The notes beneath the pieces were generated by a model. The model saw nothing but the letters and a program-made list of their open reading frames with translations, was not told the DNA's origin and did not search any database. Both the position numbers and the translations under genes were made by a program. 45,995 nt of DNA from Patescibacteria group bacterium (GTDB lineage: Bacteria > Patescibacteriota > Minisyncoccia > Phycocordibacterales > UBA12079). The stretch spans positions 1-45,995 of the forward strand of contig JAHITU010000002.1 in assembly GCA_018817595.1 (NCBI GenBank), written 5' to 3'. Below, one piece after another: positions 1,979 to 44,290 of this stretch (position 1 is the first letter of the stretch; each line of letters starts with the position of its first letter).

Positions 1979-4900
1979 ATGTTTAAAAGAACTTTTTTAG
2001 ATAAAAAAACAAAAGCATCAAAGCTATTCAAACCTTGTTTGGGTACTTTTGTTATTTCTATTTTTTTAATCACTCTAATCTCATCTCCTTTTAGATTCAC
2101 ATTAGCTGATGAAATCAACCCAGAAAACGAAAACAAAGTTTTAACAACCATAAACGAAACAGCTAATTTTGTTTATTCTTTCATTAATTCAATTTTCAAA
2201 AAACAAAAAACTACCGACGAAATAATAACAAAAGATTTAACTCCAATAATTCCTGCAGATAAAGGAGACAAAACAGAATTAAATTTAATCACAACACAAG
2301 AAACCCAAGAAACTCCAACCTCAACAATTCCTACAGAAACTGCAACTACTCCCACAGCAACCAATCTTCTTCAACCATTCATCGTTACCACTTCAGGAAT
2401 CACAGAAGCAGAATTCACTAGAAGAATAAATATTTTAGAAAATTCTTTAAAAGCAGAAATTTACAGAATGGCATCACAACTTGCTCCGACTGGTTCAATC
2501 ACACCAGAGAGCAATTTTCAAGCCATTGCTCTAAGTCAAATAATCGATAACTTAGATTTAGTAACTATTTCCAGAGCTACCATCACAGGTTCTACTTTCA
2601 CTGGCTCACAAGCTACAATCACAAACCTAGCCTCAACAGATTTAACCACTACAAATTTAACTGTTTCCGGTATAAATAATTTCAACGGAATTACAAATCT
2701 TTCAAATGCTTCCTCTACTCAATTAACAGTTTCCGATAAATTATGGTTAGGAAATCTATTAACTACAGGTAATACAATTTCAGCCACTAACGACAGTGGT
2801 CTAGCTCTTTATGATAATGCCAGCAACGGAATTTTTATAGAAGATGGAGGAAATATTGGTATAGGATCAACTTCACCAGCACAAAAACTTTCAGTAGATG
2901 GAAATACCTATATCACAGGAGGGTTAGGAGTTGGTGTTACTACAACCACAGCGGGAGCGATAGAAACAAGTGGAAATGTAATAGTTGGAGGAGATTTGCA
3001 GGTTTCAGGAGATTCAATGGTAATCGGAGATACTATTTCAGATACTTTAGTAATTAATTCTTCTATCAATTCAAATCTTATTCCAGATTTAAACGCAATG
3101 AGAGACATGGGATCTCCAGCTTATTATTGGGATGATATCTATACTGATGCCCTTTATGTAAATAATTTATCAGCTGCTTCTACTACTATCTCAGGAACTC
3201 AATCTTCTCTCTTTACTATCAATTCAGATAATTCAACTTTAGATACTGAAGACATGGATCTAGTATTTTTCAGAGGAACAGTGGTTCCGAATGCTTTAAT
3301 TTCTTGGAATTCAGGGTTAGAAAAATTTGATTTCAATCAACCAGTATTTTTCCAAAATGACTCATCCACAACCACTGTGCCGTCCTTAGAGGTTCGAGCC
3401 AAAGCAGGACAAACAGCTGATGTTTTAAAAATTTCTGATAGTACTGGTGCTAGTTATTTGAATATTGATTCTAATGGAAAAGTCGGTATAGGAACAACTA
3501 CTCTCACTAAACAATTAAATCTTTCAGGAGGCTTCTATGTTGGGGGAACAGGGACTTCTACCATTGAAAATAATCTACAAGTTAATGGACAAATTCAGAT
3601 TGGAACAGGTACAGCTTACCTTACTGCTAATGAATTAAGTACTACTGGAGATTTTACAATTTCTACTCAATCAGAAGATAGCCATTTAACTTTACAATCA
3701 ATGGGAAGAGTGGGAGTAGCTACTTCCACTCCTTGGGGAGTTTTATCAGTAGAACATAATGGATCAAATGCTGGTATGCCCGTGATGGTAATTTCTGATG
3801 AAGGAGCTTCCAATGCTAGTCTTATGGTTGATTGGTTAGGTAATACCGGAGTGGGAACAAACAACCCCAGCTCTCTATTCCATGTAGGTTCATCAACCCC
3901 AACCTATTTATCTGGTTATCGAGATGCCTTCTTTTCTGGAGATGTTGAAATAGATGGTAATACTTATTTTAATGGGGCAACAAATTTCTCAAGCGCCTCT
4001 TCTACACAATTAACAGTCTCAGACAAATCTTGGCTAGGTAATTTACTAACTACAAGCAACACAATTTCAGCCACCAACGACAGTGGCGTGGCTATTTATG
4101 ATAATGCCAGCAACGGAATCTTTGTCCAAGACGGTGGCAACATCGGAATTGGGACAACCTCACCCTTCGCTAAACTCTCAGTCAAAGGAGCAGGCACAAC
4201 CACCGGCATAAACTTTCAAACCACTAACTCAAGTGATACACCACTTGTGACTGTTTTGGATTCGGGAAATGTTGGGATTGGGACGACGGCACCGGGAGGA
4301 AAACTTCAAGTATATTCTGCTAACGATGTGGATGCTATTAGCGTTCGTTCTGGTTCAAGTGGTTCATACGCAGGTTATAGTATCGGTCGTACTTCAATCG
4401 AAGGTTATCTTGGTATAGTCGCTAATACGAATAATTTTCTTACTGGTGCAGAAACTGGCAATCTTGTTTTGAAGTCAGGATCGAGCAAATTATTATTAGG
4501 AACTGGTAACTCTATAGTTATGACGATAAATAGCTCAAGCAACGTCGGGATTGGAACGACGGCACCTTCCCAACAACTTGAAATCACCGGCGACTTCGAA
4601 ATGCCCAATACCACCTTTGCCGATCAATCAGGAATAATCTACAAAGGCTCAACTCCTTTTATACATAATTTTAATTATGGATTAAATAGTGGTGGAGTGA
4701 CAACTTTAGGAAAAAATCTTTTTATTGGAGAAGGTGCTGGAAATTTGACTATGGGTTCTATTGCAACAATAGAAAATCATAGTAGTGGTAATATCGGTAT
4801 GGGTTTTAACGTTTTGAGACTACTCACTAATGGATTTAATAATACAGTCATTGGTAATTCTGCTGGAATTAATACTACTACTGGAGCGAATAATGTTTTT

Positions 4901-7900
4901 ATTGGTGAACAATCAGGTCTCAATAATACTTCCGGTCAAAGTAATGTTTTTGTCGGAGGTCGTTCTGGTTTTAGTAATACAACTGGTTTTTCAAATACTG
5001 GTGTGGGTTATGATGCTGGTTATGGACTTACTACGGCAAGAGACAATACCTATTTAGGAAATGGGGCTGGTAAATCAAACAATACAGGAGGATACAACGT
5101 GGTTATAGGAAAGAATGCTGGGGGTAGTAGTTATGGAGGGAAAACTTATGATTCAAACACTTTAATTGGTTACAATTCAGGATATGTATTAGATGGTGGA
5201 AACAATAATACTTTCTTGGGTTATCAGACTGGGAATTCTGTAACCTCAGGAGATTCTAATATTTTAATCGGTTATGATATTGACACTCCTGCAGTTGATA
5301 CTTCTAATCACTTAAACATCGGAAATACAATTTATGGGGATTTAAGCTCAGGCAACGTCGGAATTGGAACAATATCTCCTTTTGAAAAATTACATGTTGA
5401 AGGGAATATTTCACTCGGGGATACTGTCGGGAAAGAAGTTATACTTTTTGATGGTGTGGGATCTGATAATTACGGAATAGGAACAGAACAATATAATGGT
5501 CTTTGGTATACCAATATTTATGGTGGAACTAATGCAGGTATTTCTTTTAGAACTGCGGGACCTTCTGGAACAGTTTTGGCTGTGATAAAAAATTCAGGCA
5601 ACGTCGGAATCGGAACAACCTCCCCTCAATCTCTCCTACACCTAGGAGGAACACCGGGGGCTTTGAGTAGTGGTTTGACTTTTGGTGATGGAGATACTGG
5701 GTTTTATGAGGCTGCTGACGATAATCTTTATGTTACCATTGCAGGAGCTAGAAGGGGTTATTTTGGAGTGAGTGGATTTTTTGGTAATAATAATGATGCC
5801 TTTGGTCTTATGGATGAAGCATCTAGTGGGACTAATCCTACTATTATACCTCAGAAGCTTGATTTCGATACTGGTATCGGCCGAGCCGATGCCGACCAAC
5901 TCTCCCTAATCGCAGGAGGAGTAGAAGGACACAGAATTTCAGAAGATGCTGGAGTTATTACACATAGCTTGTCTGGCAACGTCGGAATCGGAACAACCTC
6001 ACCCTTCGCCAAACTCTCAGTTAAAGGAGCAGGCACAACCACCGGCATAAACTTTCAAACCACTGACTCAGCTGATAGTCCTTTGGTGACTGTTTTGGAT
6101 TCGGGGAATGTGGGGATTGGGACGGCGAGTCCGGGGAGTAGTTTAGAAATTGCTAAAAATGGAGAACCAGAGATTCGCTTAGTAAGAACAACCGATCCAC
6201 CAGTCAATGGTCTAATTTCTGCAAGTATTGGCTCTTATGTTACAGGAGGTGGTATAAATCGCAATAATGGATATATTCGTTTTATAGAAAGAAGCGCTAG
6301 CACAATACCCATTACTGATTTAGCTTTTGGGTTGGCAACGTTTAATAATCAATTACCATATGAGGTAATGAGAATAGCAAACACCGGCAACGTTGGAATC
6401 GGAACTACCTCCCCTCAATCTCTCCTACACCTAGGAGGAACACCGGGGGCTTTGAGTAGTGGTTTGACTTTTGGTGATGGAGATACTGGGTTTTATGAGA
6501 GTGCGGATGATAGGATATATATATCGATCAATGGAGCATTAAGAGCCGGTTTTACCTCTAATGCAATTTTTGCTGGAACCAATATAGATGGAAATCCAGC
6601 GATGATGTCTGAAGTTTCTTCCCCAAGTAATCCTGTTTTTGTTTTTGCTGGAGATGTGGACACAGGTCTAGGCTCCGCAGCCGCAGACCAGCTCTCCCTA
6701 ATCGCAGGAGCGAAAGAAATCGCTAGACTGACAGAAAATACAACAGAACAATTTATTATTAATCCACAAGCAGATTTAACAGGAACAGCCGCTGCTCCGA
6801 GTCTGGCTTTTGGAGATGGGGATACTGGGTTTTATGAGAGTGCGGATGATATAATGTATGTAGGTGTAGGTGGCACTAATAAAATGTTTTGGAATAATGT
6901 TGTTTTTAGTGGGACAAGTTTAACTTCACCTCAAATATCATACACAGGAGCTAGTGCTACTGTCCCTGTATTTTCTTATGCTTTTGATGGGGATACAGGA
7001 ATAGGAAGAGCAGCCGCAGACCAACTCTCTCTAATCGCAGGAGGAGTAGAAGGACACAGAATTTCAGAAGATGCTGGAGTTATTACACATAGCTTGTCTG
7101 GCAACGTCGGAATTGGGACGACGAATCCAATTACACCCCTTCATGTTGGCTATAACGGAAGTGGAAGCATTGCTACTTTTGCAAGAACAGATGCAGCTCC
7201 TTCTTCTTTAGAACTAAGTAATGCAAGTGGTATTTTTAATTTTAATTACACCGGCGGTAGCGGTGGTCTTCGTTGGCAATTAGGGGGTGTAAGTAAATTA
7301 ACGTTAGATGCGAGTGGCAACATCGGAATTGGAACAACCTCACCCTTCGCCAAACTCTCCGTCAAAGGAGCAGGCACAACCACCGGCATAAACTTTCAAA
7401 CCACTAACTCAAGTGATACACCACTTGTGACTGTTTTGGATTCGGGAAATGTTGGGATTGGGACGGATAGCCCTAATAATAAGATACAAGTTCAAGATTT
7501 AATTAATTTTGATGATACCTTACAAAATACTTCTTTAGGTAAAAATGCCGGAAATTTAGGACAGTACAATTCATTCATTGGTTATGAAGCAGGGAAAAAT
7601 ATTACTTCTAGTTGGAATACTGGGGTTGGCTGGAAAGCTCTTATGTCAGCAACAAATGCGGAAAGAAATAGTGCTTTTGGTTATTATTCTTTATTCTCTA
7701 ATTCTTCTGGCTCAAGAAATGCTAGTTTTGGCTATGTTGCTTTATCTAGTAATACTACTGGGAATTACAATACAGCTTTTGGTTCAAATGCTTTAACTTA
7801 TAATCAGACTGGTTCTTCAAATGTTGCTATTGGTCAAGAGGCTGGAAGTGGTAGCACTGGAGCATCTAATATTTCAAATAATGTTTTTATTGGAAATGCC

Positions 7901-10039
7901 GCCGGTAAAGCTATACGAACAGGTGGTAATAATAACATATTGATAGGACATCAAGCCGGAGATAGTATTACAACTGGAGCTAGTAATATTCTAATCGGAT
8001 ATAATATAGACACTCCTGCAGTTGATACTTCTAATCATTTAAACATCGGAAATGCTATTTACGGGGATTTAAGTTCAGGCAACGTCGGAATCGGCACAAC
8101 CACCCCTCAATCTCTCTTACACTTAGGCGGAACACCGGGGATTTTGAGCAGTGGTTTAACTTTTGGAGATGGTGATACTGGGTTTTATGAGAGTTCAGAT
8201 GATGTTGTAGTAATTCATCAGGGTGGTACAGATAAATGGTCAATGACAAATGGGAAAGTATCTGCAACTGACTTTAAAACAACGAGTCCTAATACTGGCT
8301 TTTGGTTAAACAATAATGTTGGTACGTCAATTTTTAGTGGAGGAACTGGAATAGTTAATTATCACGCAACAGTTGCACATAATTTCAAGGATAACTATGC
8401 TGGAAACTCTGTTATGTACATTAATTCAACTTCTGGCAACGTTGGAATTGGGACGACTACTCCTCAAGGATTATTTGCTGTAGCCACCTCAACCAACGCC
8501 TCTTTCTTTGTTGTAGACGACCAAACAGGGAACATCGGAATGGGAATAGATAATCCATCCTACCAATTACAACTTTCAACAGACTCAGCCGCAAAACCAG
8601 GAACAGCTACATGGACAGTCGATTCCGATGAAAGACTAAAGAATGTTAATGGAGACTTTACTCGTGGTTTGTCAGCTTTAGAAGGGCTTTATCCATCTTA
8701 CTTTAATTACAAACCAGACAACGAAAGAGGAATTCCATCTAATAGGGAATATGTAGGATTAATCGCTCAAGATGTTCAAAAGGTAATTCCCGAAGCAGTC
8801 AAAGAAGGAAAAGACGGTTTCCTTTCAGTTGAATCTGATCCGATTTTCTGGACAATGTTGAATGCTATTAAAGAGTTAGCTTTGAAAGTTGGCTCTGATA
8901 ATATCTCTTATAGTAAAGATACTTTGCAGGTATTAAACGACACTGGAGAACCTCAAATGAAATTGGCCTATGATCAAGAAAACTTGGCTGAATTTAAAGT
9001 GTCTGCAGTAGGGGATTTGTCTATAAGTACTGCTGGAAAAGATATTCGTTTACCTGATGATAATATGCAAATCTGTTCAGGGGGAGCTTGCCCAACAATT
9101 TCAACTCCTCAATCAGTCGTCTCTGCGAGGAGTGGAGAGGTACGCAATGACAAAGCAGTCCAGAATTTCGAAAAATTAACTAGAGGAACAGGTAACTTAA
9201 TCGTAGAAAATGTTGCTTATATTAATGGAGCCTTAGGAGTGGGAACCCCTGCCCCAGGCAGAATAATGGATGTTTACGAATCTCAATCCGATCCACAAAT
9301 GAGGATTTCTTATGACGATGATTTGTATTCTGAATTTAATGTTTCGGCAACAGGGGACTTAACCATTTCTGCATCAGGAGGAGATGTTTCTGTTTTGAAT
9401 GAAAACTTGCGAGTTTGTTCTGATGATGGTTGTCCTTCTGTTGTCAGTCAAATCCAAGACAAGGGTAATTTAGTGGTAGAAAATTCATTGTTGGCATTAG
9501 GTAATGTAGGAATCGGAGGTACAGTTTCTCCTGATTACACCTTAGATGTTCAAGGAACTCTACGAGCCTACGGCATCACCGACGCCTCCGACATCCGCCT
9601 GAAAACAAATATCCGTAATTTGACAAGGGGTCGTTCCCCTTATAGTGAGGTTACGAACGGAGGGGTGCGACCCCTAAGTCAAACTTCAGCCACCCTTCAA
9701 AACATCCAAAAACTTCGTGGTGTAAAATTTGAATGGAAAGACTCCACTTTTGGCACAGGTGATCAAATTGGGTTCATTGCCCAAGAAGTAGAAAAAGTTT
9801 ACCCAGAATTAGTTTCCACAGATAATGACGGTCTTAAATCGGTTCAATACGGAAAATTCACTGCTGTGTTATTAGAAGCTGTAAAAGACTTAATCAATTG
9901 GGGAGAAACTATCGAATATCGTTCTGCTCGCCTAGAAGACAGAACAACTCAATTAGAAAAAGAAAACGCCTCATTAAAACAAAAAACCCAATCCCTAGAA
10001 TCCCGAATCGAAGCCCTAGAAAACATTCTGAGACAATAA
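1979..10039 (+). CDS. Giant secreted fibre/adhesin-like protein with two S74 intramolecular chaperone domains
   Basis: This 2,686-residue protein starts with a signal peptide or anchor (hydrophobic 20-40, likely cut after TLA at about 43) and a Thr/Pro-rich linker. The body is built of repeated GNVGIGTTSP units alternating with beta-roll segments like YadA heads (NNVFIGEQSG type, roughly residues 950-1105 and 1850-2010). Two Peptidase_S74-like domains follow. The SDERLK signature is at 2216-2221 and SDIRLK at 2537-2542, both with the Ser and Lys five residues apart as in the known self-cleaving dyad. The last 40 residues form a coiled coil. S74 domains help trimeric phage fibres fold and then cut themselves off, so I infer a trimeric surface fibre. 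Two REP-like repeats are inserted in frame near the C-terminus. No phage genes adjoin it. Confidence 0.85.
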   Translation: MFKRTFLDKKTKASKLFKPCLGTFVISIFLITLISSPFRFTLADEINPENENKVLTTINETANFVYSFINSIFKKQKTTDEIITKDLTPIIPADKGDKTELNLITTQETQETPTSTIPTETATTPTATNLLQPFIVTTSGITEAEFTRRINILENSLKAEIYRMASQLAPTGSITPESNFQAIALSQIIDNLDLVTISRATITGSTFTGSQATITNLASTDLTTTNLTVSGINNFNGITNLSNASSTQLTVSDKLWLGNLLTTGNTISATNDSGLALYDNASNGIFIEDGGNIGIGSTSPAQKLSVDGNTYITGGLGVGVTTTTAGAIETSGNVIVGGDLQVSGDSMVIGDTISDTLVINSSINSNLIPDLNAMRDMGSPAYYWDDIYTDALYVNNLSAASTTISGTQSSLFTINSDNSTLDTEDMDLVFFRGTVVPNALISWNSGLEKFDFNQPVFFQNDSSTTTVPSLEVRAKAGQTADVLKISDSTGASYLNIDSNGKVGIGTTTLTKQLNLSGGFYVGGTGTSTIENNLQVNGQIQIGTGTAYLTANELSTTGDFTISTQSEDSHLTLQSMGRVGVATSTPWGVLSVEHNGSNAGMPVMVISDEGASNASLMVDWLGNTGVGTNNPSSLFHVGSSTPTYLSGYRDAFFSGDVEIDGNTYFNGATNFSSASSTQLTVSDKSWLGNLLTTSNTISATNDSGVAIYDNASNGIFVQDGGNIGIGTTSPFAKLSVKGAGTTTGINFQTTNSSDTPLVTVLDSGNVGIGTTAPGGKLQVYSANDVDAISVRSGSSGSYAGYSIGRTSIEGYLGIVANTNNFLTGAETGNLVLKSGSSKLLLGTGNSIVMTINSSSNVGIGTTAPSQQLEITGDFEMPNTTFADQSGIIYKGSTPFIHNFNYGLNSGGVTTLGKNLFIGEGAGNLTMGSIATIENHSSGNIGMGFNVLRLLTNGFNNTVIGNSAGINTTTGANNVFIGEQSGLNNTSGQSNVFVGGRSGFSNTTGFSNTGVGYDAGYGLTTARDNTYLGNGAGKSNNTGGYNVVIGKNAGGSSYGGKTYDSNTLIGYNSGYVLDGGNNNTFLGYQTGNSVTSGDSNILIGYDIDTPAVDTSNHLNIGNTIYGDLSSGNVGIGTISPFEKLHVEGNISLGDTVGKEVILFDGVGSDNYGIGTEQYNGLWYTNIYGGTNAGISFRTAGPSGTVLAVIKNSGNVGIGTTSPQSLLHLGGTPGALSSGLTFGDGDTGFYEAADDNLYVTIAGARRGYFGVSGFFGNNNDAFGLMDEASSGTNPTIIPQKLDFDTGIGRADADQLSLIAGGVEGHRISEDAGVITHSLSGNVGIGTTSPFAKLSVKGAGTTTGINFQTTDSADSPLVTVLDSGNVGIGTASPGSSLEIAKNGEPEIRLVRTTDPPVNGLISASIGSYVTGGGINRNNGYIRFIERSASTIPITDLAFGLATFNNQLPYEVMRIANTGNVGIGTTSPQSLLHLGGTPGALSSGLTFGDGDTGFYESADDRIYISINGALRAGFTSNAIFAGTNIDGNPAMMSEVSSPSNPVFVFAGDVDTGLGSAAADQLSLIAGAKEIARLTENTTEQFIINPQADLTGTAAAPSLAFGDGDTGFYESADDIMYVGVGGTNKMFWNNVVFSGTSLTSPQISYTGASATVPVFSYAFDGDTGIGRAAADQLSLIAGGVEGHRISEDAGVITHSLSGNVGIGTTNPITPLHVGYNGSGSIATFARTDAAPSSLELSNASGIFNFNYTGGSGGLRWQLGGVSKLTLDASGNIGIGTTSPFAKLSVKGAGTTTGINFQTTNSSDTPLVTVLDSGNVGIGTDSPNNKIQVQDLINFDDTLQNTSLGKNAGNLGQYNSFIGYEAGKNITSSWNTGVGWKALMSATNAERNSAFGYYSLFSNSSGSRNASFGYVALSSNTTGNYNTAFGSNALTYNQTGSSNVAIGQEAGSGSTGASNISNNVFIGNAAGKAIRTGGNNNILIGHQAGDSITTGASNILIGYNIDTPAVDTSNHLNIGNAIYGDLSSGNVGIGTTTPQSLLHLGGTPGILSSGLTFGDGDTGFYESSDDVVVIHQGGTDKWSMTNGKVSATDFKTTSPNTGFWLNNNVGTSIFSGGTGIVNYHATVAHNFKDNYAGNSVMYINSTSGNVGIGTTTPQGLFAVATSTNASFFVVDDQTGNIGMGIDNPSYQLQLSTDSAAKPGTATWTVDSDERLKNVNGDFTRGLSALEGLYPSYFNYKPDNERGIPSNREYVGLIAQDVQKVIPEAVKEGKDGFLSVESDPIFWTMLNAIKELALKVGSDNISYSKDTLQVLNDTGEPQMKLAYDQENLAEFKVSAVGDLSISTAGKDIRLPDDNMQICSGGACPTISTPQSVVSARSGEVRNDKAVQNFEKLTRGTGNLIVENVAYINGALGVGTPAPGRIMDVYESQSDPQMRISYDDDLYSEFNVSATGDLTISASGGDVSVLNENLRVCSDDGCPSVVSQIQDKGNLVVENSLLALGNVGIGGTVSPDYTLDVQGTLRAYGITDASDIRLKTNIRNLTRGRSPYSEVTNGGVRPLSQTSATLQNIQKLRGVKFEWKDSTFGTGDQIGFIAQEVEKVYPELVSTDNDGLKSVQYGKFTAVLLEAVKDLINWGETIEYRSARLEDRTTQLEKENASLKQKTQSLESRIEALENILRQ
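4136..4285 (+). repeat. Intragenic 150-bp cassette, copy 1
   Basis: A 50-codon block encoding GNIGIGTTSPFAKLSVKGAG and following residues. It recurs nearly identically at 5975-6124 and 7316-7465 within the same gene. The sequences on either side differ, which points to cassette shuffling. Confidence 0.85.
5597..5710 (+). repeat. Intragenic 114-bp cassette, copy 1
   Basis: A 38-codon block encoding GNVGIGTTSPQSLLHLGGTP and following residues up to FYE. It is repeated at 6386-6499 and 8078-8191. Confidence 0.85.
5975..6124 (+). repeat. Intragenic 150-bp cassette, copy 2
   Basis: Same block as 4136-4285. It is preceded by a stretch (about 5908-5974) that also precedes a different cassette near 7034-7100. 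Confidence 0.85.
6386..6499 (+). repeat. Intragenic 114-bp cassette, copy 2
   Basis: Same block as 5597-5710, with almost no substitutions. Confidence 0.85.
7316..7465 (+). repeat. Intragenic 150-bp cassette, copy 3
   Basis: Same block as 4136-4285, followed here by a second YadA-like head segment. Confidence 0.85.
8078..8191 (+). repeat. Intragenic 114-bp cassette, copy 3
   Basis: Same block as 5597-5710. The region just before it (about 7984-8077) repeats 5255-5350. Confidence 0.85.
9118..9167. repeat. REP-like dispersed repeat inserted in frame in the giant gene
   Basis: CGTCTCTGCGAG at the left and AAGCAGTCCAGAATTT at the right match the intergenic copy at 10049-10100. It is translated as about 17 residues (VSARSGEVRNDKAVQNF) between a PTISTPQ segment and TRGTGNLIVEN. 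Confidence 0.85.
9619..9683. repeat. Double palindrome inserted in frame in the second S74 domain
   Basis: Two palindromes, AAGGGG-tcgtt-CCCCTT (9625-9641) and AGGGGT-gcg-ACCCCT (9661-9675), lie between TTTGAC and GTCAAA. The second resembles the RAYT palindrome core. It adds about 20 codons within an otherwise normal NIRNLT...SATLQNIQ region of the chaperone domain. Confidence 0.75.
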
Positions 10040-23745: not shown

Positions 23746-23880
23746 AAGTTCTGGATTGCCATGATTCAATTTTTTAACAAAAAATTGAATCTCGCAAAGA
23801 CGGATTTTGAGAAGCAAAATCCGTTACGAAAAGCAAAGCTTTTCGTCTCTGCGAGCGATAGCGAAGCAGTCCAGAAATTA
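23746..23880. repeat. Composite REP-like repeat upstream of alaS
   Basis: The outer ends TTCTGGATTGCC and GCAGTCCAGAAATT are inverted. Inside are GATTCAATTTTTT/AAAAAATTGAATC, CTCGCAAAGACG, the ACGGATTTTG/CAAAATCCGT palindrome, GTTACGAAAAGC/GCTTTTCGTC and TCTGCGAGCGATAGCGAAG. It ends 11 bases before the alaS ATG. Confidence 0.85.
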
Positions 23881-25652: not shown

Positions 25653-25709
25653 TTTTCCAAAAAAGATTTAAGATTTAAGAATTAAGAAAATGAAAATCTT
25701 TGATTTTTA

Positions 25710-25797
25710 ACAGTCGCTCCGCGATCGTCTTTGCGAGGCGAGTGTTTTTTTATTTTTTTAAAAAAAATTAAAAAATCACTCAACGAAGCAATCCAGA
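25710..25797. repeat. REP-like repeat with A/T palindromic core
   Basis: Left arm ATCGTCTTTGCGAGGC, core GAGTG...CACTC with an AT-only interior, right arm AACGAAGCAATCCAGA. The design equals 15625-15695 but the core is different. Confidence 0.8.
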
Positions 25798-25827
25798 TAA
25801 ATTAAACCTATTACAAATATTTAGAAA

Positions 25828-25862
25828 TGAACACCTCAACCCGTTGAGGTGTTCATTTTTTT
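25828..25862 (+). terminator. Intrinsic terminator of alaS
   Basis: TGAACACCTCAA-cccg-TTGAGGTGTTCA (25828-25855) followed by TTTTTTT. Confidence 0.92.
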
Positions 25863-25870
25863 ATTTTTCG

Positions 25871-25879
25871 TGCTAAAAT
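25871..25879 (+). promoter_or_regulatory. Extended -10 promoter for the baseplate-J-like gene
   Basis: TGCTAAAAT, identical to the elements before the RelE-like toxin and before the tyrS leader. The predicted transcript begins about 100 bases before the ATG and carries the hairpin at 25908-25975. Confidence 0.55.
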
Positions 25880-25907
25880 ATAGGGATAAAATAATTTATT
25901 AAAAATA

Positions 25908-25975
25908 AGTCAAAAGTCCATAAAGTCCATAAAGTCAAATGACTTTCGACTTTCGACTTTATAGACTTTTAACTA
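25908..25975. repeat. Satellite-like hairpin with GTCCATAAA/GACTTTCG words, copy 1
   Basis: The left arm has AAAGTCCATAAAGTCCATAA; the right arm has GACTTTCGACTTTCGACTTT followed by ATAGACTTTT. Related elements precede rpsK and rpoA. An apparent upstream start at 25939 lies inside this repeat and is not used. Confidence 0.75.
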
Positions 25976-25983
25976 AACTCGCT

Positions 25984-27252
25984 ATGATACAAAAACTACA
26001 AGATGTGACCCCACCAAAAAGATCTATTCATGATATTCCAGTACCAAATGGAAAGCCAAGAAAATCAATAACTTCGCATGTGAGATCTGCAAACAAAAAA
26101 TCAACTTCTTTCATTAAAAAAGTTATTATTGCTTTAGTTTTAGCAGTGATTGCTTTTGTATTATTTATATCTCTGGCTGCTTCTAGTGTGGAGGTTTCTA
26201 TAGTGCCTAGACAACTAGAAAAAAGAACAGATGCTTCTTATATCGCTGTTTCGGACAATGAAACAGGAGGAATCCCTTTTGACATTATAATGTTGGACAA
26301 AACTTCAGTAAAAGCTGTAGCAGTCACAGGTGAAGAAAAAGTAACAGAAAAAGCTCGAGGAGAAATAATTATTTTCAATGATTTTGATTCTAGTAGTCAA
26401 AGATTGATAAAAAATACACGTTTTGAAACTCCGGAAGGGTTGATTTTTAGAATTCAAAATTCAGTTGTTGTTCCTGGACAAAAAGAGGACAGTACAGGAA
26501 AAATGATTCCGGGTTCTATCGAGGTGACTGTATATGCTGATCAGCCCGGAGAGGAATATAACATAGGATTAAAGGACTTTACTGTTCCGGGATTCAAGGG
26601 TTCTGACAGATATGATAAATTTTATGCTCGTTCCAAAACGGAAATGACAGGAGGATTTGAAGGAGTTAAAAAAGTTGCTTCAGATGAAGATATTATAAAT
26701 ATGCAAACTCAATTAGGAACAGAATTAATTTCTGGGCTAACTGAAGAGATAAAGACACAAATTCCTGATGGTTTTATCTTATACGATGACGCTATTTTTT
26801 CGGAAACAAAATTTTTAGGAACTAAGAATTTAGATGATGGTGTAGGTGTAGAAGAAAAAGGCTCTGTTTATGCAATTATTTTTAACAAATCTAATTTAAG
26901 TAAATACGTAGCCGAGAATGTTATTGATGACTATGATGGAGCTGATTTGATAATTTCTAATTTGGAAGAACTAGATTTTGAAATAAAAAATAAGAAAGAT
27001 GTGACTCCTTGGGTAGAGGGAAGATTTGTATTCTCTCTTAAGGGTCAATGTAACTTTGAATGGCTTTTTGATGAGGAAGCTTTAAAGAATGATTTTGTTG
27101 GTAAAGCAAAAGATACCACTAGTGAAATATTATCTCAATATCCTAGTATTGATTCTGCAGAAGTTGTAGTTAAACCTTTTTGGAAAAATTCTTTTCCTAG
27201 AAGTACTAGCAAAATAGAAATAATTAAGAATTTAGAAAAGGAAAATATCTAA
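25984..27252 (+). CDS. Membrane-anchored protein with a baseplate-J-like domain
   Basis: A 422-residue protein starting MIQKLQDVTPPKRS, with a cytoplasmic basic tail, one membrane helix (about residues 48-68, VIIALVLAVIAFVLFISLAA) and a large external part. The external part has GEIIIFNDFDSSSQ, ETPEGLIFRIQNSVVVPGQ, GSIEVTVYADQPGEEYNIG and FTVPGFKGSDRYDKF, the pattern of Baseplate_J-like proteins, which in CPR genomes appear as chromosomal membrane proteins and not phage parts. The upstream frame extension to 25939 is translated repeat and unlikely. Function unknown. Confidence 0.7.
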   Translation: MIQKLQDVTPPKRSIHDIPVPNGKPRKSITSHVRSANKKSTSFIKKVIIALVLAVIAFVLFISLAASSVEVSIVPRQLEKRTDASYIAVSDNETGGIPFDIIMLDKTSVKAVAVTGEEKVTEKARGEIIIFNDFDSSSQRLIKNTRFETPEGLIFRIQNSVVVPGQKEDSTGKMIPGSIEVTVYADQPGEEYNIGLKDFTVPGFKGSDRYDKFYARSKTEMTGGFEGVKKVASDEDIINMQTQLGTELISGLTEEIKTQIPDGFILYDDAIFSETKFLGTKNLDDGVGVEEKGSVYAIIFNKSNLSKYVAENVIDDYDGADLIISNLEELDFEIKNKKDVTPWVEGRFVFSLKGQCNFEWLFDEEALKNDFVGKAKDTTSEILSQYPSIDSAEVVVKPFWKNSFPRSTSKIEIIKNLEKENI

Positions 27253-27817: not shown

Positions 27818-27929
27818 GGACTGCTTCGTCGCAGGCTCCTCGCAGAGACGAATTTTACAAAGTAAAATTCGTTACGAAAAGCTAAAGCTTTTCGTCTTTG
27901 CGAGGAGGTTACGACGAAGCAATCCAGAG
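27818..27929. repeat. Composite REP-like repeat between rpmJ and rpsM
   Basis: A nearly symmetric unit: GGACTGCTTCGTCG...CTCCTCGCAGAGACG, then GAATTTTAC/GTAAAATTC, GTTACGAAAAGC/GCTTTTCGTC, and TTTGCGAGGAG...CGACGAAGCAATCC. It sits inside a ribosomal-protein operon, so it must be transcribed. An apparent start at 27898 lies within it and is rejected. Confidence 0.85.
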
Positions 27930-27990
27930 ATTAATAAGAAAAAAATTACTTTGCAATTTTTTCCTAAAAGCTAACCTACTAAATAAATAT

Positions 27991-28368
27991 ATGAGAATTT
28001 CAGGAATTACAATCCCAGATGAAAAAAGATTAGAAATAGGCCTAACGGTCTTGTTTGGTGTTGGAAGACCATTAGCTCATAAAATTTTAGATGAAGCAAA
28101 GGTTGAATATGGTAAAAAACCAAAGGATACAACTCCAGAAGAAGAGAACGCGATAAGAAAGATTGTTGAAGAATTAAAACTAGAAGGAAACTTAAAAAGA
28201 GAGATAAGTGGAAATGTTAAAAGATTGATTGATATTGGTTCATACAGAGGATCAAGACATTCTAGAGGTTTACCTAGTCGAGGTCAAAGAACTAGAACAA
28301 ATTCGAGAACATTGCGTGGTAAGAAGAAAACTATGGGTTCTGGTAGAAAAAAGGCAGATAAAAAATAA
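27991..28368 (+). CDS. rpsM: 30S ribosomal protein S13
   Basis: A 125-residue protein of the small-subunit head that contacts the P-site tRNA through its tail. MRISGITIPDEKRLEIGLTV at the start, then LFGVGRPLAHKIL, and the C-terminal GSYRGSRHSRGLPSRGQRTR, TNSRTLRG. ATG 27991 is chosen because upstream codons come from the repeat and the family starts with (M)RI.G. Usual length. Confidence 0.96.
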   Translation: MRISGITIPDEKRLEIGLTVLFGVGRPLAHKILDEAKVEYGKKPKDTTPEEENAIRKIVEELKLEGNLKREISGNVKRLIDIGSYRGSRHSRGLPSRGQRTRTNSRTLRGKKKTMGSGRKKADKK

Positions 28369-28376
28369 TAATAACG

Positions 28377-28478
28377 AGTCAAAAGTCCATAAAGTCCATA
28401 AAGTCAAAAATTAAAAATCACAAAGTGATTTTTAAAAAAAGACTTTCGACTTTCGACTTTAAAGACTTTAGACTAACA
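28377..28478. repeat. Satellite-like hairpin, GTCCATAAA/GACTTTCG family, copy 2 (before rpsK)
   Basis: Left arm AAAAGTCCATAAAGTCCATA, an inner AAAATCAC/GTGATTTT hairpin, right arm GACTTTCGACTTTCGACTTT. It ends 5 bases before the rpsK start. Confidence 0.8.
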
Positions 28479-28483
28479 TAATT

Positions 28484-28927
28484 ATGGGTAAAAAAAGAAT
28501 TATAAAAAAGACAGGAAAAACAGGAGGATCAAAAAACAGTGCTTTGAAATCACGTTTTTTAAGTCGTGGCTCAAAAAGGAAGTTAGACACTGGGATTTTG
28601 CATGTTCGTTCAACTTATAACAATACCCTTATTTCCCTAACTGATTTAAAAGGGGATTTAATTTGTAATTCTTCAAGTGGGGCATTAGGTTTCAGAGGGG
28701 CTAAAAAAGGAACACCTTTCGCAGCTGCTAAAATAGGTGAATTAATTGGAGATATGGCAAAATCATTAGGTATAAAGACTGTTGATATCGTTGTAAAAGG
28801 GGTAGGAGCAGGAAGGGAGGCTGGAATAAGAGGTTTTATTTCAAAAGGTATTCATATTGATTCAATTAAAGATATGACACCAATTCCTCATAACGGACCT
28901 AAACCTAAGAAACCTAGAAGAGTGTAA
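28484..28927 (+). CDS. rpsK: 30S ribosomal protein S11
   Basis: A 147-residue platform protein of the small subunit: GILHVRSTYNNTLISLTDLK, SSSGALGFRGAKKGTPFAA, GVGAGREAGIRGF, and the C-terminal DMTPIPHNGPKPKKPRRV. A basic N-terminal extension of about 30 residues precedes the conserved core. Position between rpsM and rpsD is the standard alpha-operon order. Confidence 0.97.
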   Translation: MGKKRIIKKTGKTGGSKNSALKSRFLSRGSKRKLDTGILHVRSTYNNTLISLTDLKGDLICNSSSGALGFRGAKKGTPFAAAKIGELIGDMAKSLGIKTVDIVVKGVGAGREAGIRGFISKGIHIDSIKDMTPIPHNGPKPKKPRRV

Positions 28928-29058
28928 AAATTAAACAAAGTTTAATTTTAAGAGATAGGATTTAAGATTTAAGATTTAAGAAAAAAATTTGCAGAGCAAA
29001 TCCTTAAATCCTAAATCTTAAATCTTAAATCTTATTTTTAAATAATAATTTAAAAATT
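28928..29058. repeat. 130-bp r-protein intergenic repeat, copy 1 (before rpsD)
   Basis: AATTAAAcaaaGTTTAATT hairpin, then TTTAAGATTTAAGATTTAAG, the centre ATTTGC-aga-GCAAAT, then the inverse arm of TAAATCTTAAATCTTAAATC, and a common tail AATAATAATTTAAAAATT. Nearly identical copies precede rplM and rpsI. Confidence 0.88.
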
Positions 29059-29059
29059 T

Positions 29060-29671
29060 ATGATTATAAAAACAAAATATAAATTATGTCGAAGATTAGG
29101 TGCTAATCTTTTCGAGAAAACTCAGACACAAAAATATGCTTTAGCTGAAGCTCGAAAGAGTGGAAACAAAAGATTGAAAAGAAAGAAGATGCCTTCTCAA
29201 TATGGTTTACAATTGATTGAAAAGCAAAAATTACGTTTTTCTTATGGTATAAGAGAAAAGCAATTAGCTAAATATGTTAAGGAATCAATCCTTCAAGAGA
29301 ATTCAAATCCAGCAGATTCTTTAAATAAGAGACTGGAACTAAGATTAGATAACGTTGTTTATAGATTAGGAATAGCTCCTACAAGAGCAATGGCAAGACA
29401 ATTAGTTTCTCATGGACATATTATGGTAAATGGTAAAAGACTATCAATTGCTTCCCACAAAACAAAGGTAGGAGATATCATAAGTATAAGAGAACAAAGT
29501 CAAAGTAAAAAAGCGTTTGAAAATTTAGCAGAAGTTATAAAGAATGCTGTTAAAGTTGATTGGTTGAATTTTGATTTAAAAAAGAAAGAAGGAAAAATTA
29601 TTTCTGAACCCAAGTTAGAGAGTCAAGAAATCTTTGATTTCAAAACAATTCTAGAATTTTATGGTCGTTAA
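29060..29671 (+). CDS. rpsD: 30S ribosomal protein S4
   Basis: A 203-residue primary rRNA-binding protein that nucleates 30S assembly. KYKLCRRLGANLFEK at the start (without the zinc cysteines of some forms), KQKLRFSYGIREKQLAKYV, and the S4 RNA-binding domain at about 95-160 (RLELRLDNVVYRLGIAPTRA, RQLVSHGHIMVNGKRLSI). Full length. Preceded directly by the 130-bp repeat. Confidence 0.97.
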   Translation: MIIKTKYKLCRRLGANLFEKTQTQKYALAEARKSGNKRLKRKKMPSQYGLQLIEKQKLRFSYGIREKQLAKYVKESILQENSNPADSLNKRLELRLDNVVYRLGIAPTRAMARQLVSHGHIMVNGKRLSIASHKTKVGDIISIREQSQSKKAFENLAEVIKNAVKVDWLNFDLKKKEGKIISEPKLESQEIFDFKTILEFYGR

Positions 29672-29746
29672 TATAGCCTTTTAATTTGCAAAAATGCTTA
29701 AAGTGATGTACTATTTATAAAACTTTTAATAATTAATTAAAAAGAG

Positions 29747-29931
29747 AGTCAAAAGTCCATAAAGTCCATAAAGTCAAAAAAGTCCATAAAGTTCATAAAG
29801 TCTATAAAGTCCATAAAGTCAAAAAATTTGGAAAGCAAATTTTTCACTTTCGACTTTCGACTTTCGACTTTCGACTACTGCTGACAAGCAGCTCTGACTT
29901 TCGACTTTCGACTTTATAGACTTTTAACTAA
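29747..29931. repeat. Satellite-like hairpin, GTCCATAAA/GACTTTCG family, expanded copy 3 (before rpoA)
   Basis: The longest copy. The left arm repeats AGTCCATAAAGT words about six times. The right arm repeats CGACTTT words about seven times, interrupted by CTGCTGACAAGCAGCT. An AAATTTGgaaagCAAATTT hairpin is at the centre. It ends 7 bases before the rpoA ATG. Confidence 0.82.
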
Positions 29932-29938
29932 TCAATCT

Positions 29939-30916
29939 ATGTCTGAATATAATATTTTATTACCATCAAAACCTATTATCGTTAAAGACGAGGGTTTTAA
30001 AGGTCTTTATCAAATAGATGGTTTATATCCAGGCTATGGACACACATTAGGTAATTCTTTAAGAAGAATAATTTTATCTTCTTTACCAGGAACAGCTGTT
30101 ACTTCAGTGGAAATTGAGGGAGTTGAACATGAATTTTCTACTATCAGTGGAATCAAGGAAGATGTGATTAGAATTCTTTTAAATATCAAAAAATTAAGAA
30201 TTAAGATGTTAACAGATGAGCCACAAGTTTTGACTTTGAAAGCAAAAGGAGTTAAAAATGTTACAGCTGCAGATATTGATGCTAATGGGCAAATAGAAAT
30301 AATGAATCCTGAGTTAGAGATAGCAACTTTAACAGATGTCAAGGCTTCCTTGGATATGAGAATCACAGTTAAAAAAGGATTAGGATACATAAGTAAAGAA
30401 GATCAAACAGAAGAAAGAACTAAAATTGGAATGATGATTTTAGATGCTTCATATACACCCATTAGAAGAGTTTCTTATGAAGTTGAAAATATGAGAGTTG
30501 GAGACAGAACAGATTTTAACAGACTTTCTATTTTCATAGAAACCGATGGAACAATTGAACCAAAGGAAGCATTAGAAAATTCAATAGAAATAATGATTAA
30601 GCAGTTGGCTGCTATTGTTGGTTTTGAAGAAGAGTCAATTGGAATTTCAGAAGAAGAAAAGAAACAAGTTGAAGAAAAAGAAGATGTAGGGAAAAAAGAT
30701 GAAATGGATAACGATTTTCTGAAAACAAGAGTCGATACCTTGAACTTATCTTTAAGAACAGCAAATGCTTTAGATGGTGCAAGTATTCGAACAGTTGGAG
30801 GTTTAGTTAAAAAGACAGAAGACGATTTATTGTCTTTGGAAGGATTAGGAGCTAAAGGAATTCAAGAAATCAAAAGAGCTTTAAGTGATTTTGGTGTAAT
30901 ATTGAAGCAAAAATAA
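29939..30916 (+). CDS. rpoA: DNA-directed RNA polymerase subunit alpha
   Basis: A 325-residue subunit. The N-terminal dimerisation domain has GLYPGYGHTLGNSLRRIILS, SSLPGTAVTSVEIEGVEHEF and TIEPKEALENSIEIMIKQL. An acidic linker (about 235-258) leads to an intact C-terminal domain with helix-hairpin-helix residues NLSLRTANALDGASIRTVGG, LEGLGAKGIQEIKRAL. The alpha CTD is therefore kept and can contact UP elements or regulators. rplQ begins 2 bases after the stop. Confidence 0.98.
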   Translation: MSEYNILLPSKPIIVKDEGFKGLYQIDGLYPGYGHTLGNSLRRIILSSLPGTAVTSVEIEGVEHEFSTISGIKEDVIRILLNIKKLRIKMLTDEPQVLTLKAKGVKNVTAADIDANGQIEIMNPELEIATLTDVKASLDMRITVKKGLGYISKEDQTEERTKIGMMILDASYTPIRRVSYEVENMRVGDRTDFNRLSIFIETDGTIEPKEALENSIEIMIKQLAAIVGFEEESIGISEEEKKQVEEKEDVGKKDEMDNDFLKTRVDTLNLSLRTANALDGASIRTVGGLVKKTEDDLLSLEGLGAKGIQEIKRALSDFGVILKQK

Positions 30917-30917
30917 T

Positions 30918-31274
30918 ATGAGACATCATAACAGTAACAAAAAATTCGGTAGATCAAAAAATCAAAGAAAGGCACTTTTACGTTCTTTGGCTATTTCTCT
31001 TGTAGAAAATGAATCAATAAAAACAACTGAGACCAAGGCTAAGTCTTTAAGACCTTTTGTTGAAAAATTAATTACACGAGGTAAAAAAGATTCCATTTTT
31101 ACAAAAAGATTATTAATGATGAAATTAGGAGGAGAAAATATGAAGATTGTTAATAAATTAACAAATGAATTAGCTGGTAAGTATAAAGAAAGAAACGGAG
31201 GATATACACGTATTACAAAATTAACACATAGACAGGGAGATGGAAGCCCTATGGCTCAAATAGAGTTAGTATAA
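30918..31274 (+). CDS. rplQ: 50S ribosomal protein L17
   Basis: A 118-residue protein near the exit tunnel: RHHNSNKKFGRSKNQRKALL, RSLAISLVENESIKTTETKA, RPFVEKLITRGKK, and ERNGGYTRITKLTHRQGDGS. It lies directly after rpoA, as almost always in bacteria. Confidence 0.97.
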   Translation: MRHHNSNKKFGRSKNQRKALLRSLAISLVENESIKTTETKAKSLRPFVEKLITRGKKDSIFTKRLLMMKLGGENMKIVNKLTNELAGKYKERNGGYTRITKLTHRQGDGSPMAQIELV

Positions 31275-31403
31275 AATTAAACAAAGTTTAATTTTAAGAG
31301 ATAGGATTTAAGATTTAAGATTTAAGAAAAAAATTTGCAGAGCAAATCCTTAAATCATAAATCTTAAATCTTAAATCTTATTTTTAAATAATAATTTAAA
31401 AAT
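31275..31403. repeat. 130-bp r-protein intergenic repeat, copy 2 (before rplM)
   Basis: Differs from the copy before rpsD at only a few bases. It ends 1 base before the rplM ATG. Confidence 0.88.
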
Positions 31404-31404
31404 T

Positions 31405-31752
31405 ATGGAATATAATATAGATGCACGAGGAGAAAAATTAGGAAGATTAGCTAGTCAAATAGCAATTTTGTTAATGGGAAAAAACAAAACAGACTTTACA
31501 AAAAATGAATTAGCAGATGCTAAAGTTAATGTTATTAATGCTTCAAAATTAAATATTACTAGAAAGAAAATGAAGCAAACAGAATATCAAAAATATTCTG
31601 GGTTCCCAGGAGGAAGAAAAGTTGAAAATATGGAAAAAGTAATTTCAGATAAAGGATACACAGAAATATTAAGAAAAGCTGTATATGGAATGCTTCCTGG
31701 AAATAAATTACGACCATTAATGATGAAAAATTTGATAATAAAAGAAAATTAA
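31405..31752 (+). CDS. rplM: 50S ribosomal protein L13
   Basis: A 115-residue early-assembly protein: EYNIDARGEKLGRLASQIAI, GKNKTDFTKNELADAKVNVI, YQKYSGFPGGRKVENMEKVI, EILRKAVYGMLPGNKLRPLM. It is about 25 residues shorter than the E. coli protein, ending soon after the MLPGNKLR motif. The rplM-rpsI order is conserved. Confidence 0.95.
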   Translation: MEYNIDARGEKLGRLASQIAILLMGKNKTDFTKNELADAKVNVINASKLNITRKKMKQTEYQKYSGFPGGRKVENMEKVISDKGYTEILRKAVYGMLPGNKLRPLMMKNLIIKEN

Positions 31753-31875
31753 ACAAAGTTTAATTTTAAGAGATAGGATTTAAGATTTAAGATTTAAGAA
31801 AAAAATTTACAGAGTAAATTCTTAAATCCTAAATCTTAAATCTTAAATCTTATTTTTAAATTATTATTTAAAAAT
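31753..31875. repeat. 130-bp r-protein intergenic repeat, copy 3 (before rpsI)
   Basis: Third near-identical copy; in the centre GCAGAGC is changed to ACAGAGT. It starts at the rplM stop and ends at the rpsI ATG. Confidence 0.88.
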
Positions 31876-31876
31876 T

Positions 31877-32287
31877 ATGACTACAACTAAAACAACAAAT
31901 AAATATATAGAAACAGTTGGAAGAAGAAAAACAGCTACAGCCAGAGTTAGATTAACTGAAGCTGCAAAAACTTCTTATATTGTTAACGGTGGAAAATTAT
32001 CTGAATATTTTAACACAGAAGAATTACAATCAATAGTAAAAGAAGCTTTTGATATAGCTAAATTTGAAGGTAAATATTCAGTCTCTGCCTTAGTAAACGG
32101 AGGAGGTATCCATGCGCAAGCAGAAGCCATTAGACATGGAATTTCTAGAGCTTTACTTAAAATCGACGAAGAATTTAAGAAGGATTTGAAAAAAGCTGGA
32201 TTCTTGAAGAGAGACCCAAGAATGAAAGAAAGAAAGAAATTCGGTTTGAAATCTGCTCGTAGAGCTCCACAATGGAATAAGAGATAA
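31877..32287 (+). CDS. rpsI: 30S ribosomal protein S9
   Basis: A 136-residue protein whose basic tail reaches the P-site tRNA: YIETVGRRKTATARVRLTEA, VNGGGIHAQAEAIRHGISRA, LLKIDEEFKKDLKKAGFLKR, and DPRMKERKKFGLKSARRAPQ, WNKR. Full length. The following 194 bp (32288-32481) is AT-rich with imperfect TTTTTAATTTTTAAA-type inverted words and no gene. Confidence 0.97.
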   Translation: MTTTKTTNKYIETVGRRKTATARVRLTEAAKTSYIVNGGKLSEYFNTEELQSIVKEAFDIAKFEGKYSVSALVNGGGIHAQAEAIRHGISRALLKIDEEFKKDLKKAGFLKRDPRMKERKKFGLKSARRAPQWNKR

Positions 32288-35479: not shown

Positions 35480-35590
35480 ATTGCTCTTAACTAGCATTAC
35501 TATGAACTTTAGTAGTTTCGTTTTTGTATTGTTGATGCCGAGCCTGCCTGCCGGCAGGCAGGCTGCGACCTCTAAATTAGAAACAGGATT
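35480..35590. repeat. Imperfect copy of the 22139-22205 spacer, with inserted CCTGCCTG palindrome
   Basis: The segment ACTTTAGTAGTTT...GTATTGTTGATGCCGAG and GCGACCTCTAAATTAG resembles the dut upstream spacer (CTTTAGTAATTTGTATTG, TAATACCGAGGTCGTACTTC). The palindrome CCTGCCTGCCGGCAGGCAGG (35551-35570) splits the copy here. No gene is supported in 35441-35917. Confidence 0.4.
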
Positions 35591-44084: not shown

Positions 44085-44245
44085 GGAATTAAGAACGGAT
44101 TTTGGCTTCGTCAAAATCCGTAATGAAAAGAGATTGCTTCGTGCTTCGCAATGACGGTTCGCTGGAAGCGAACCGTTACGAAAAGCAAAGCTTTTCGTCT
44201 TTGCGAGGAACAGAGCGTAGCGGAGTGACGAAGCAATCCAGAAAT
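44085..44245. repeat. Composite REP-like repeat after aspS
   Basis: ACGGATTTTGgcttcgtCAAAATCCGT, then AGATTGCTTCG...GCAATGACGG, GGTTCGCtggaaGCGAACC, GTTACGAAAAGC/GCTTTTCGTC, and the right end TTTGCGAGG...ACGAAGCAATCCAGAAATT. It contains most modules found singly elsewhere. Confidence 0.85.
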
Positions 44246-44247
44246 TA

Positions 44248-44290
44248 AACAAAGACCACTTGGAAATAACATTTCCAAGTGGTCTTTGTT
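44248..44290. terminator. Terminator (CACTTGGA family) after aspS
   Basis: A 19-bp stem from AACAAAGACCACTTGGAAA (44248-44266) with 44272-44290. Its arms begin in A-rich and end in T-rich DNA. Confidence 0.8.

Follow-up and report, generated by a model that had tools for sequence, protein, structure and literature searches.

Near-identical heptamer-repeat hairpins in the ribosomal-protein operon of a member of the Patescibacteria: probable recent copies of a palindrome made at the DNA level

Do near-identical hairpins lying immediately upstream of three ribosomal-protein genes in one operon serve those genes, or are they copies of a sequence element that has multiplied in the spacers? The window (the whole stretch of 45,995 nucleotides analysed here, which is contig C7 of its assembly, with 32% G+C) belongs to a genome of 815,563 bases in 34 contigs, whose named relatives by rpoA are Candidatus Paceibacterota and Campbellbacteria/Zambryskibacteria MAGs, which make it a Patescibacteria genome of Parcubacteria type, within Paceibacterota. 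The hairpins stand in an rpsM-rpsK-rpsD-rpoA-rplQ-rplM-rpsI run (27988-32287) whose order is identical in the relatives examined, and the operon membership supposed in a first-pass annotation is thereby supported. Pfam matches cover S4, L13 and S9, while the other operon genes were named from their translations and from gene order; ORF calling was simple and the MAGs of the relatives are incomplete. A promoter-like element, TTTGCAAAAATG...TACTATTTAT, is also present in the rpsD>rpoA spacer (29672-29740) and has a counterpart in many relatives, which suggests an internal promoter for rpoA.

The first-pass annotation had described the spacers before rpsD, rplM and rpsI as nearly the same sequence, and alignment agrees with it. 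Copies A and B are 99% identical; copy C matches each of them at 95-96% over 131-132 nt, with one substituted site between A and B, five between C and A, and six among all copies together. The matching region begins at or within the upstream stop codon and runs to the downstream ATG, the alignment being gapless internally except for one base beside the ATG in A. Each copy comprises three hairpins: a small one on the 5' side, the heptamer stem, which is capped by an apical hairpin, and an AT palindrome on the 3' side (Table 1). The arms of the stem are tandem heptamers of period 7 (TTAAGAT/ATCTTAA, in other words GATTTAA/AATCTTA repeats). Minimum free energies lie between -36.5 and -37.7 kcal/mol; shuffled sequences average -13.8 to -14.9, giving z values of -8.0 to -8.7, and none of 200 shuffles folds as well. 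Elements of this kind are dispersed: the 815-kb genome has 55 occurrences of the heptamer pair GATTTAAGATTTAAG with at most one mismatch, versus one of a reversed control pattern. Full-length copies in the genome are A, B and C only, the next-best matches being mostly 40-57 bp long and 82-90% identical.

Table 1. Positions of the operon segment, the three spacer copies, their parts and the related repeats (coordinates of the window)
Feature	Position	Strand	Basis
Ribosomal-protein operon segment rpsK-rpsD-rpoA-rplQ-rplM-rpsI	28484..32287	+	ORFs, Pfam (rpsD, rplM, rpsI), conserved order
Copy A, spacer rpsK>rpsD, stop to start	28928..29059	+	99% identity to B, 96% to C; z -8.2
Copy B, spacer rplQ>rplM	31275..31404	+	Alignment; z -8.7
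Copy C, spacer rplM>rpsI (spacer proper 31753-31876)	31746..31876	+	Alignment; z -8.0
5' small hairpin AAATTAAAC-AAA-GTTTAATTT	A 28928..28948, B 31274-31294, C 31746-31766	+	Fold; sequence identical in all three
Left heptamer arm, GATTTAA repeats	A 28951..28978, B 31297-31324, C 31769-31796	+	Repeat analysis, fold
Apical hairpin ATTTGC-AGA-GCAAAT	A 28987..29001, B 31333-31347, C 31805-31819	+	Alignment, fold
Right heptamer arm, AATCTTA repeats	A 29012..29039, B 31358-31385, C 31830-31857	+	Repeat analysis, fold
3' AT palindrome abutting the start codon	A 29034..29057, C 31852-31875	+	C is the exact reverse complement, 24/24 inverted match
Second-family hairpin (AAAGTCCAT left, GACTTTC right), before rpsK	28369..28483	+	Repeat analysis
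Second-family hairpin, before rpoA	29747..29938	+	96% copy over 103 bp on contig C25
Spacer with GATTTAA-type repeats and AAAGTCCAT/GACTTTC hairpin	25653..25983	+	Upstream of/overlapping the called start of ORF 25939-27252

Collapsed or misplaced repeats might imitate such a pattern in an assembly of 34 contigs whose ends share overlaps of exactly 141 bases. The repeats are nevertheless shorter than this overlap, the copies differ at six sites, the gene order is that of relatives and other genomes show the pattern too, making an artefact scarcely credible.

The differences between the copies are informative in themselves. Relative to A, copy C has one compensated apical pair (G-C to A-T), carries the palindrome spacer in inverted orientation and shows one more difference. 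A compensated pair together with an exact inversion arose in 0 of 400,000 random draws of five substitutions, in a test that was framed post hoc. Template switching between inverted repeats is reported to homogenise arms and to invert spacers (PMC8604942), and also to create and maintain RNA-like hairpins (PMC8794818). Copy C additionally overlies the end of rplM, because the last codon and the stop come from the first bases of the element: L13 ends in LIIKEN* in the window versus LIIKE* or LIINE* in the closest relatives, and both the added AAT codon and the TAA stop fall within those first bases (AAAATTAAAC).

If the hairpins served rpsD, rplM and rpsI, for instance in the mRNA processing, stability or balancing of ribosomal-protein output that had been proposed for them, they should recur at the same genes, and the first-pass annotation had named this comparison as a check. 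Comparison of the sequences finds unrelated hairpins, or none, in the relatives. Within the same genus, the spacers of G003 are 10-25 nt long at all three junctions and carry no hairpin. In G002, rpsK>rpsD holds a hairpin of TTAGCT words and rplM>rpsI one of AAAGTC words, and rplQ>rplM is without any. The rpsK>rpsD hairpin of G001 is also of the TTAGCT kind and is related to its G002 counterpart; at rplQ>rplM this genome has a short TTAGCT-type sequence. Since hairpins are absent or built of other words at these junctions, and partly stand in other spacers, their presence at a given gene is labile. More broadly, each of six junctions (73-80 genomes per junction) has spacers of 80 nt or more in 3 to 17 genomes, with no preferred site. 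No clean empty site is definable among the relatives, whose AT-rich spacers diverge.

A role in mRNA, in which the hairpins would block exonucleases, direct processing or insulate cistrons while leaving an AT-rich start open, and so tune the output of S4, L13 and S9, has several observations in its favour: the copies fold strongly inside a conserved operon, occupy three ribosomal-protein junctions with a spacing to the ATG that is equal within one base, and more bases are unpaired before the start than after the stop (median 9 versus 4 nt, p 1e-4). This last asymmetry indicates that translation constrains hairpin placement; it is as expected if copies that close the start site are lost. Against such a role, positions are unconserved even within the genus, hairpins are found at any spacer and also outside ribosomal-protein genes, and the window has no Rfam match at gathering threshold, whether to ribosomal-protein leaders or to other RNAs. 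Stem mismatches likewise carry no RNA-type signature: on the sense strand there are 34 G-T and 48 A-C mismatches (p 0.82, with a symmetric stem finder), which matches composition. Selection on RNA should favour G-U pairs, so the absence of a sense-strand G-U excess over A-C favours the DNA level, as do the compensated pair, the spacer inversion and the orientation of the apical loop, which shows no clear bias. For that loop, C-AAA-G, a preference for one strand relative to transcription was considered and is not convincing (18 sense versus 8 antisense in co-directional spacers, A, B and C counted). The shared role in ribosomal-protein expression is thus unsupported by the comparison with relatives and by the mismatches, and we regard a function in mRNA as rather unlikely. 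Intrinsic termination was also considered and set aside, the three spacers showing no terminator-like site and their stems consisting of AT heptamers, not of a G+C-rich stem with a T run.

The three copies belong to a larger class. A survey covered 541 spacers of this operon from 95 genomes, a hairpin being defined by a fold z below -2.5; 120 of the spacers measured 60-400 nt, and 62 of these, spread over 36 genomes, passed the threshold. Autocorrelation at lag 7 in these 62 spacers reaches 0.412 versus 0.307 after shuffling (z 27) and recurs as harmonics at 14 and 21; spacers without a hairpin give a weak signal (z 3.3). Exact tracts show the same period, with 57 of period 7 versus 9 of period 8 in the relatives and 66 versus 8 in the own genome, of which 407 of 815 kb were surveyed. 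The words fall into 51 classes, most of them private to one genome, which rules out a limited vocabulary common to the genomes. Hairpins of one operon share words far more often (18 of 44 within-operon pairs) than hairpins of different genomes (90 of 1847 pairs; Fisher p 3e-12), and close parallels to the window are found in L116, where the rplQ>rplM and rplM>rpsI spacers are nearly the same, in L131 (three spacers) and in L118 (two). The recent spread or gene conversion that the first-pass annotation had suggested is therefore supported, by this recurrent within-operon copying as well as by the 95-99% identity of the copies and by the end of rplM that copy C supplies. Outside the operon, a genome of another genus (G004) has a relative of nearly full length, an 83% match over 107 bp, in a 121-nt spacer between pilT-like and pilC-like genes, so named by reading their translations. 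A few 3-kb loci from elsewhere in the phylum, such as L201, show that members of the class also exist in other orders.

Taken with the arm-symmetric changes, these data make it fairly likely, in our judgement, that A, B and C are recent copies of one palindrome from a tandem-heptamer class that extends across Paceibacterota, and that they were made and copied at the DNA level. Arms would grow by polymerase slippage in 7-nt steps, their complementarity would be kept by template switching between arms during replication, and whole elements may enter other spacers by ectopic recombination or conversion at short AT-rich homologies around stop and start codons. Stop-to-start spacers could tolerate the elements provided that the start codon remains open, and effects on mRNA would be secondary. 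As a broader and distinctly more tentative proposal, the heptamer-word palindromes of Patescibacteria might be self-templating, arising and spreading among operon spacers without a transposase through slippage and arm-to-arm switching, with a private word in each genome.

One property of a second family of hairpins, characterised by AAAGTC words and found in the window before rpsK and rpoA, counts against this DNA-level model: its members combine one arm of 9-nt words with one of 7-nt words, a difference not predicted by simple homogenisation of the arms. Speaking for the model, near-identical tandem and dispersed copies occur elsewhere in the genome. The C25 copy of the hairpin upstream of rpoA is 92% identical to another on contig C23, and C23 itself carries two hairpins 169 bp apart that are 97% identical.

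The closest precedents are the heptanucleotide stem of the Nostoc P6b and the inverted GGGAATC repeats of Xanthomonas. In the group I intron of the Nostoc tRNA-Leu (UAA) gene, P6b is a stem of complementary heptanucleotides, whose class I word is TDNGATT (PMC4476775). As in P6b, the arms of the window hairpins are complementary tandem 7-nt repeats, TDNGATT fits their arm word, and the change of P6b stem length through gain and loss of repeats is a further likeness. P6b occupies one intron site in a splicing context, unlike the class described here, which has many intergenic sites, many words and no intron; the window hairpins do not lie in a tRNA-Leu group I intron. Intergenic tandem heptamers are also known from Xanthomonas (GGGAATC) and Nostoc (GGGGAYT), with polymerase slippage proposed to explain the 7-nt size (PMC4692102); those of Xanthomonas further resemble the present class in often being paired in inverted orientation, but the repeats of both organisms use one fixed G-rich word with quadruplex potential. 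The TAACTGA heptamers of Beggiatoaceae (PMC4679880) are similarly intergenic and just upstream of starts, including that of rpsD (S4); they differ in being direct repeats with one indirect set only, in lacking hairpin arms and in having a word shared across phyla. No paper on palindromic spacers in Parcubacteria or on a heptamer-hairpin class in Patescibacteria was found among the open-licence papers searched.

REP and RPE sequences are, like the present copies, short dispersed intergenic palindromes; they differ in measuring 20-40 bp, in having a GTAG- or CGTC-tagged end and in lacking heptamer-repeat arms (PMC3733652). An identity of A, B and C as REPs was rejected, as neither tag is present in the aligned sequences, the unit is about 131 bp long and the RAYT-type gene of the window is flanked by a different palindrome. 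A related possibility is REP- or MITE-like non-autonomous mobility, in which a Y1 transposase of the IS200 type, encoded by the host, would move the copies. Copies are dispersed, the genome does have Y1 genes, including one at 877-1635, and hairpin DNA is a known type of RAYT substrate (PMC3733652). That Y1 gene is however flanked by GTAGGGGTGCTACCCCTAC palindromes, not by the A/B/C element. The flanks of the copies align without a consistent target duplication of the kind expected of MITEs, AT-rich flanks being able to hide short ones. Y1 genes (PF01797) were matched in 25 of 30 genomes searched and not in four hairpin-bearing MAGs (L130, L143, L147 and L153, which may be incomplete), so that a requirement for the transposase is not supported; G174 and G175, also Y1-negative, gave genome samples poor in periodic hairpin elements. 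Mobilisation by Y1 is on balance unlikely. The GTAGGGGTGCTACCCCTAC palindromes themselves look like GTAG-tagged REPs (PMC3733652). At 817-1766, AGTAGGGGTGCTACCCCTACT palindromes border the Y1 gene, one copy (1059-1101) lying within its reading frame, and gene and palindromes together are, judged from their sequence, a putative REPtron-like unit.

Finally, the hairpins might be recombination or protein-binding sites selected as DNA palindromes for a role in the chromosome. Strong over-representation of the C-AAA-G triloop in the genome and the family, and its sharing by several word families, would suit this; the words nevertheless differ between genomes, hairpin density varies widely, with nearly none in the G174 sample, and the loop has no convincing strand preference. 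We consider such a role very improbable.

Should the DNA-level origin of A, B and C be correct, strong, near-identical and even compensated hairpins can arise between essential genes without an RNA function, and covariation in such spacers would be unsafe proof of a riboregulator. Dozens of reduced genomes would moreover provide a natural system for measuring how palindromes are built by slippage and template switching.

Several other features of the window and the genome were observed. Among perfect 7-bp triloop hairpins, C-AAA-G is the commonest loop, with 31 of 532 when both strands of a 407-kb genome sample are counted; it is common to unrelated repeat families, and the reversed G-AAA-C control is nearly absent in the genome and the family. 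Such loops are found in CGTCTTTGCGAGG...GCAATCC repeats at 23818-23857, 27867-27906 and 44170-44258, which may belong with the CGTC-tagged palindromes known as RPE in Rickettsia (PMC3733652). A perfect G+C-rich palindrome, CCTGCCTGCCGGCAGGCAGG, lies at 35543-35562 and has 29 genome sites with at most one mismatch; it is also present in several family members and inside the arms of some AAAGTC hairpins. The ends of the contig (1-141 and 45855-45995) are identical over 141 bases inside an IS200-like transposase gene; this probably marks the point where assembly (k = 141) broke off in a multicopy element, and not a real circle. The 2686-aa repetitive protein encoded at 1979-10039, with two matches to the Peptidase_S74 chaperone domain, appears from its sequence to resemble a tail-fibre-like surface protein.
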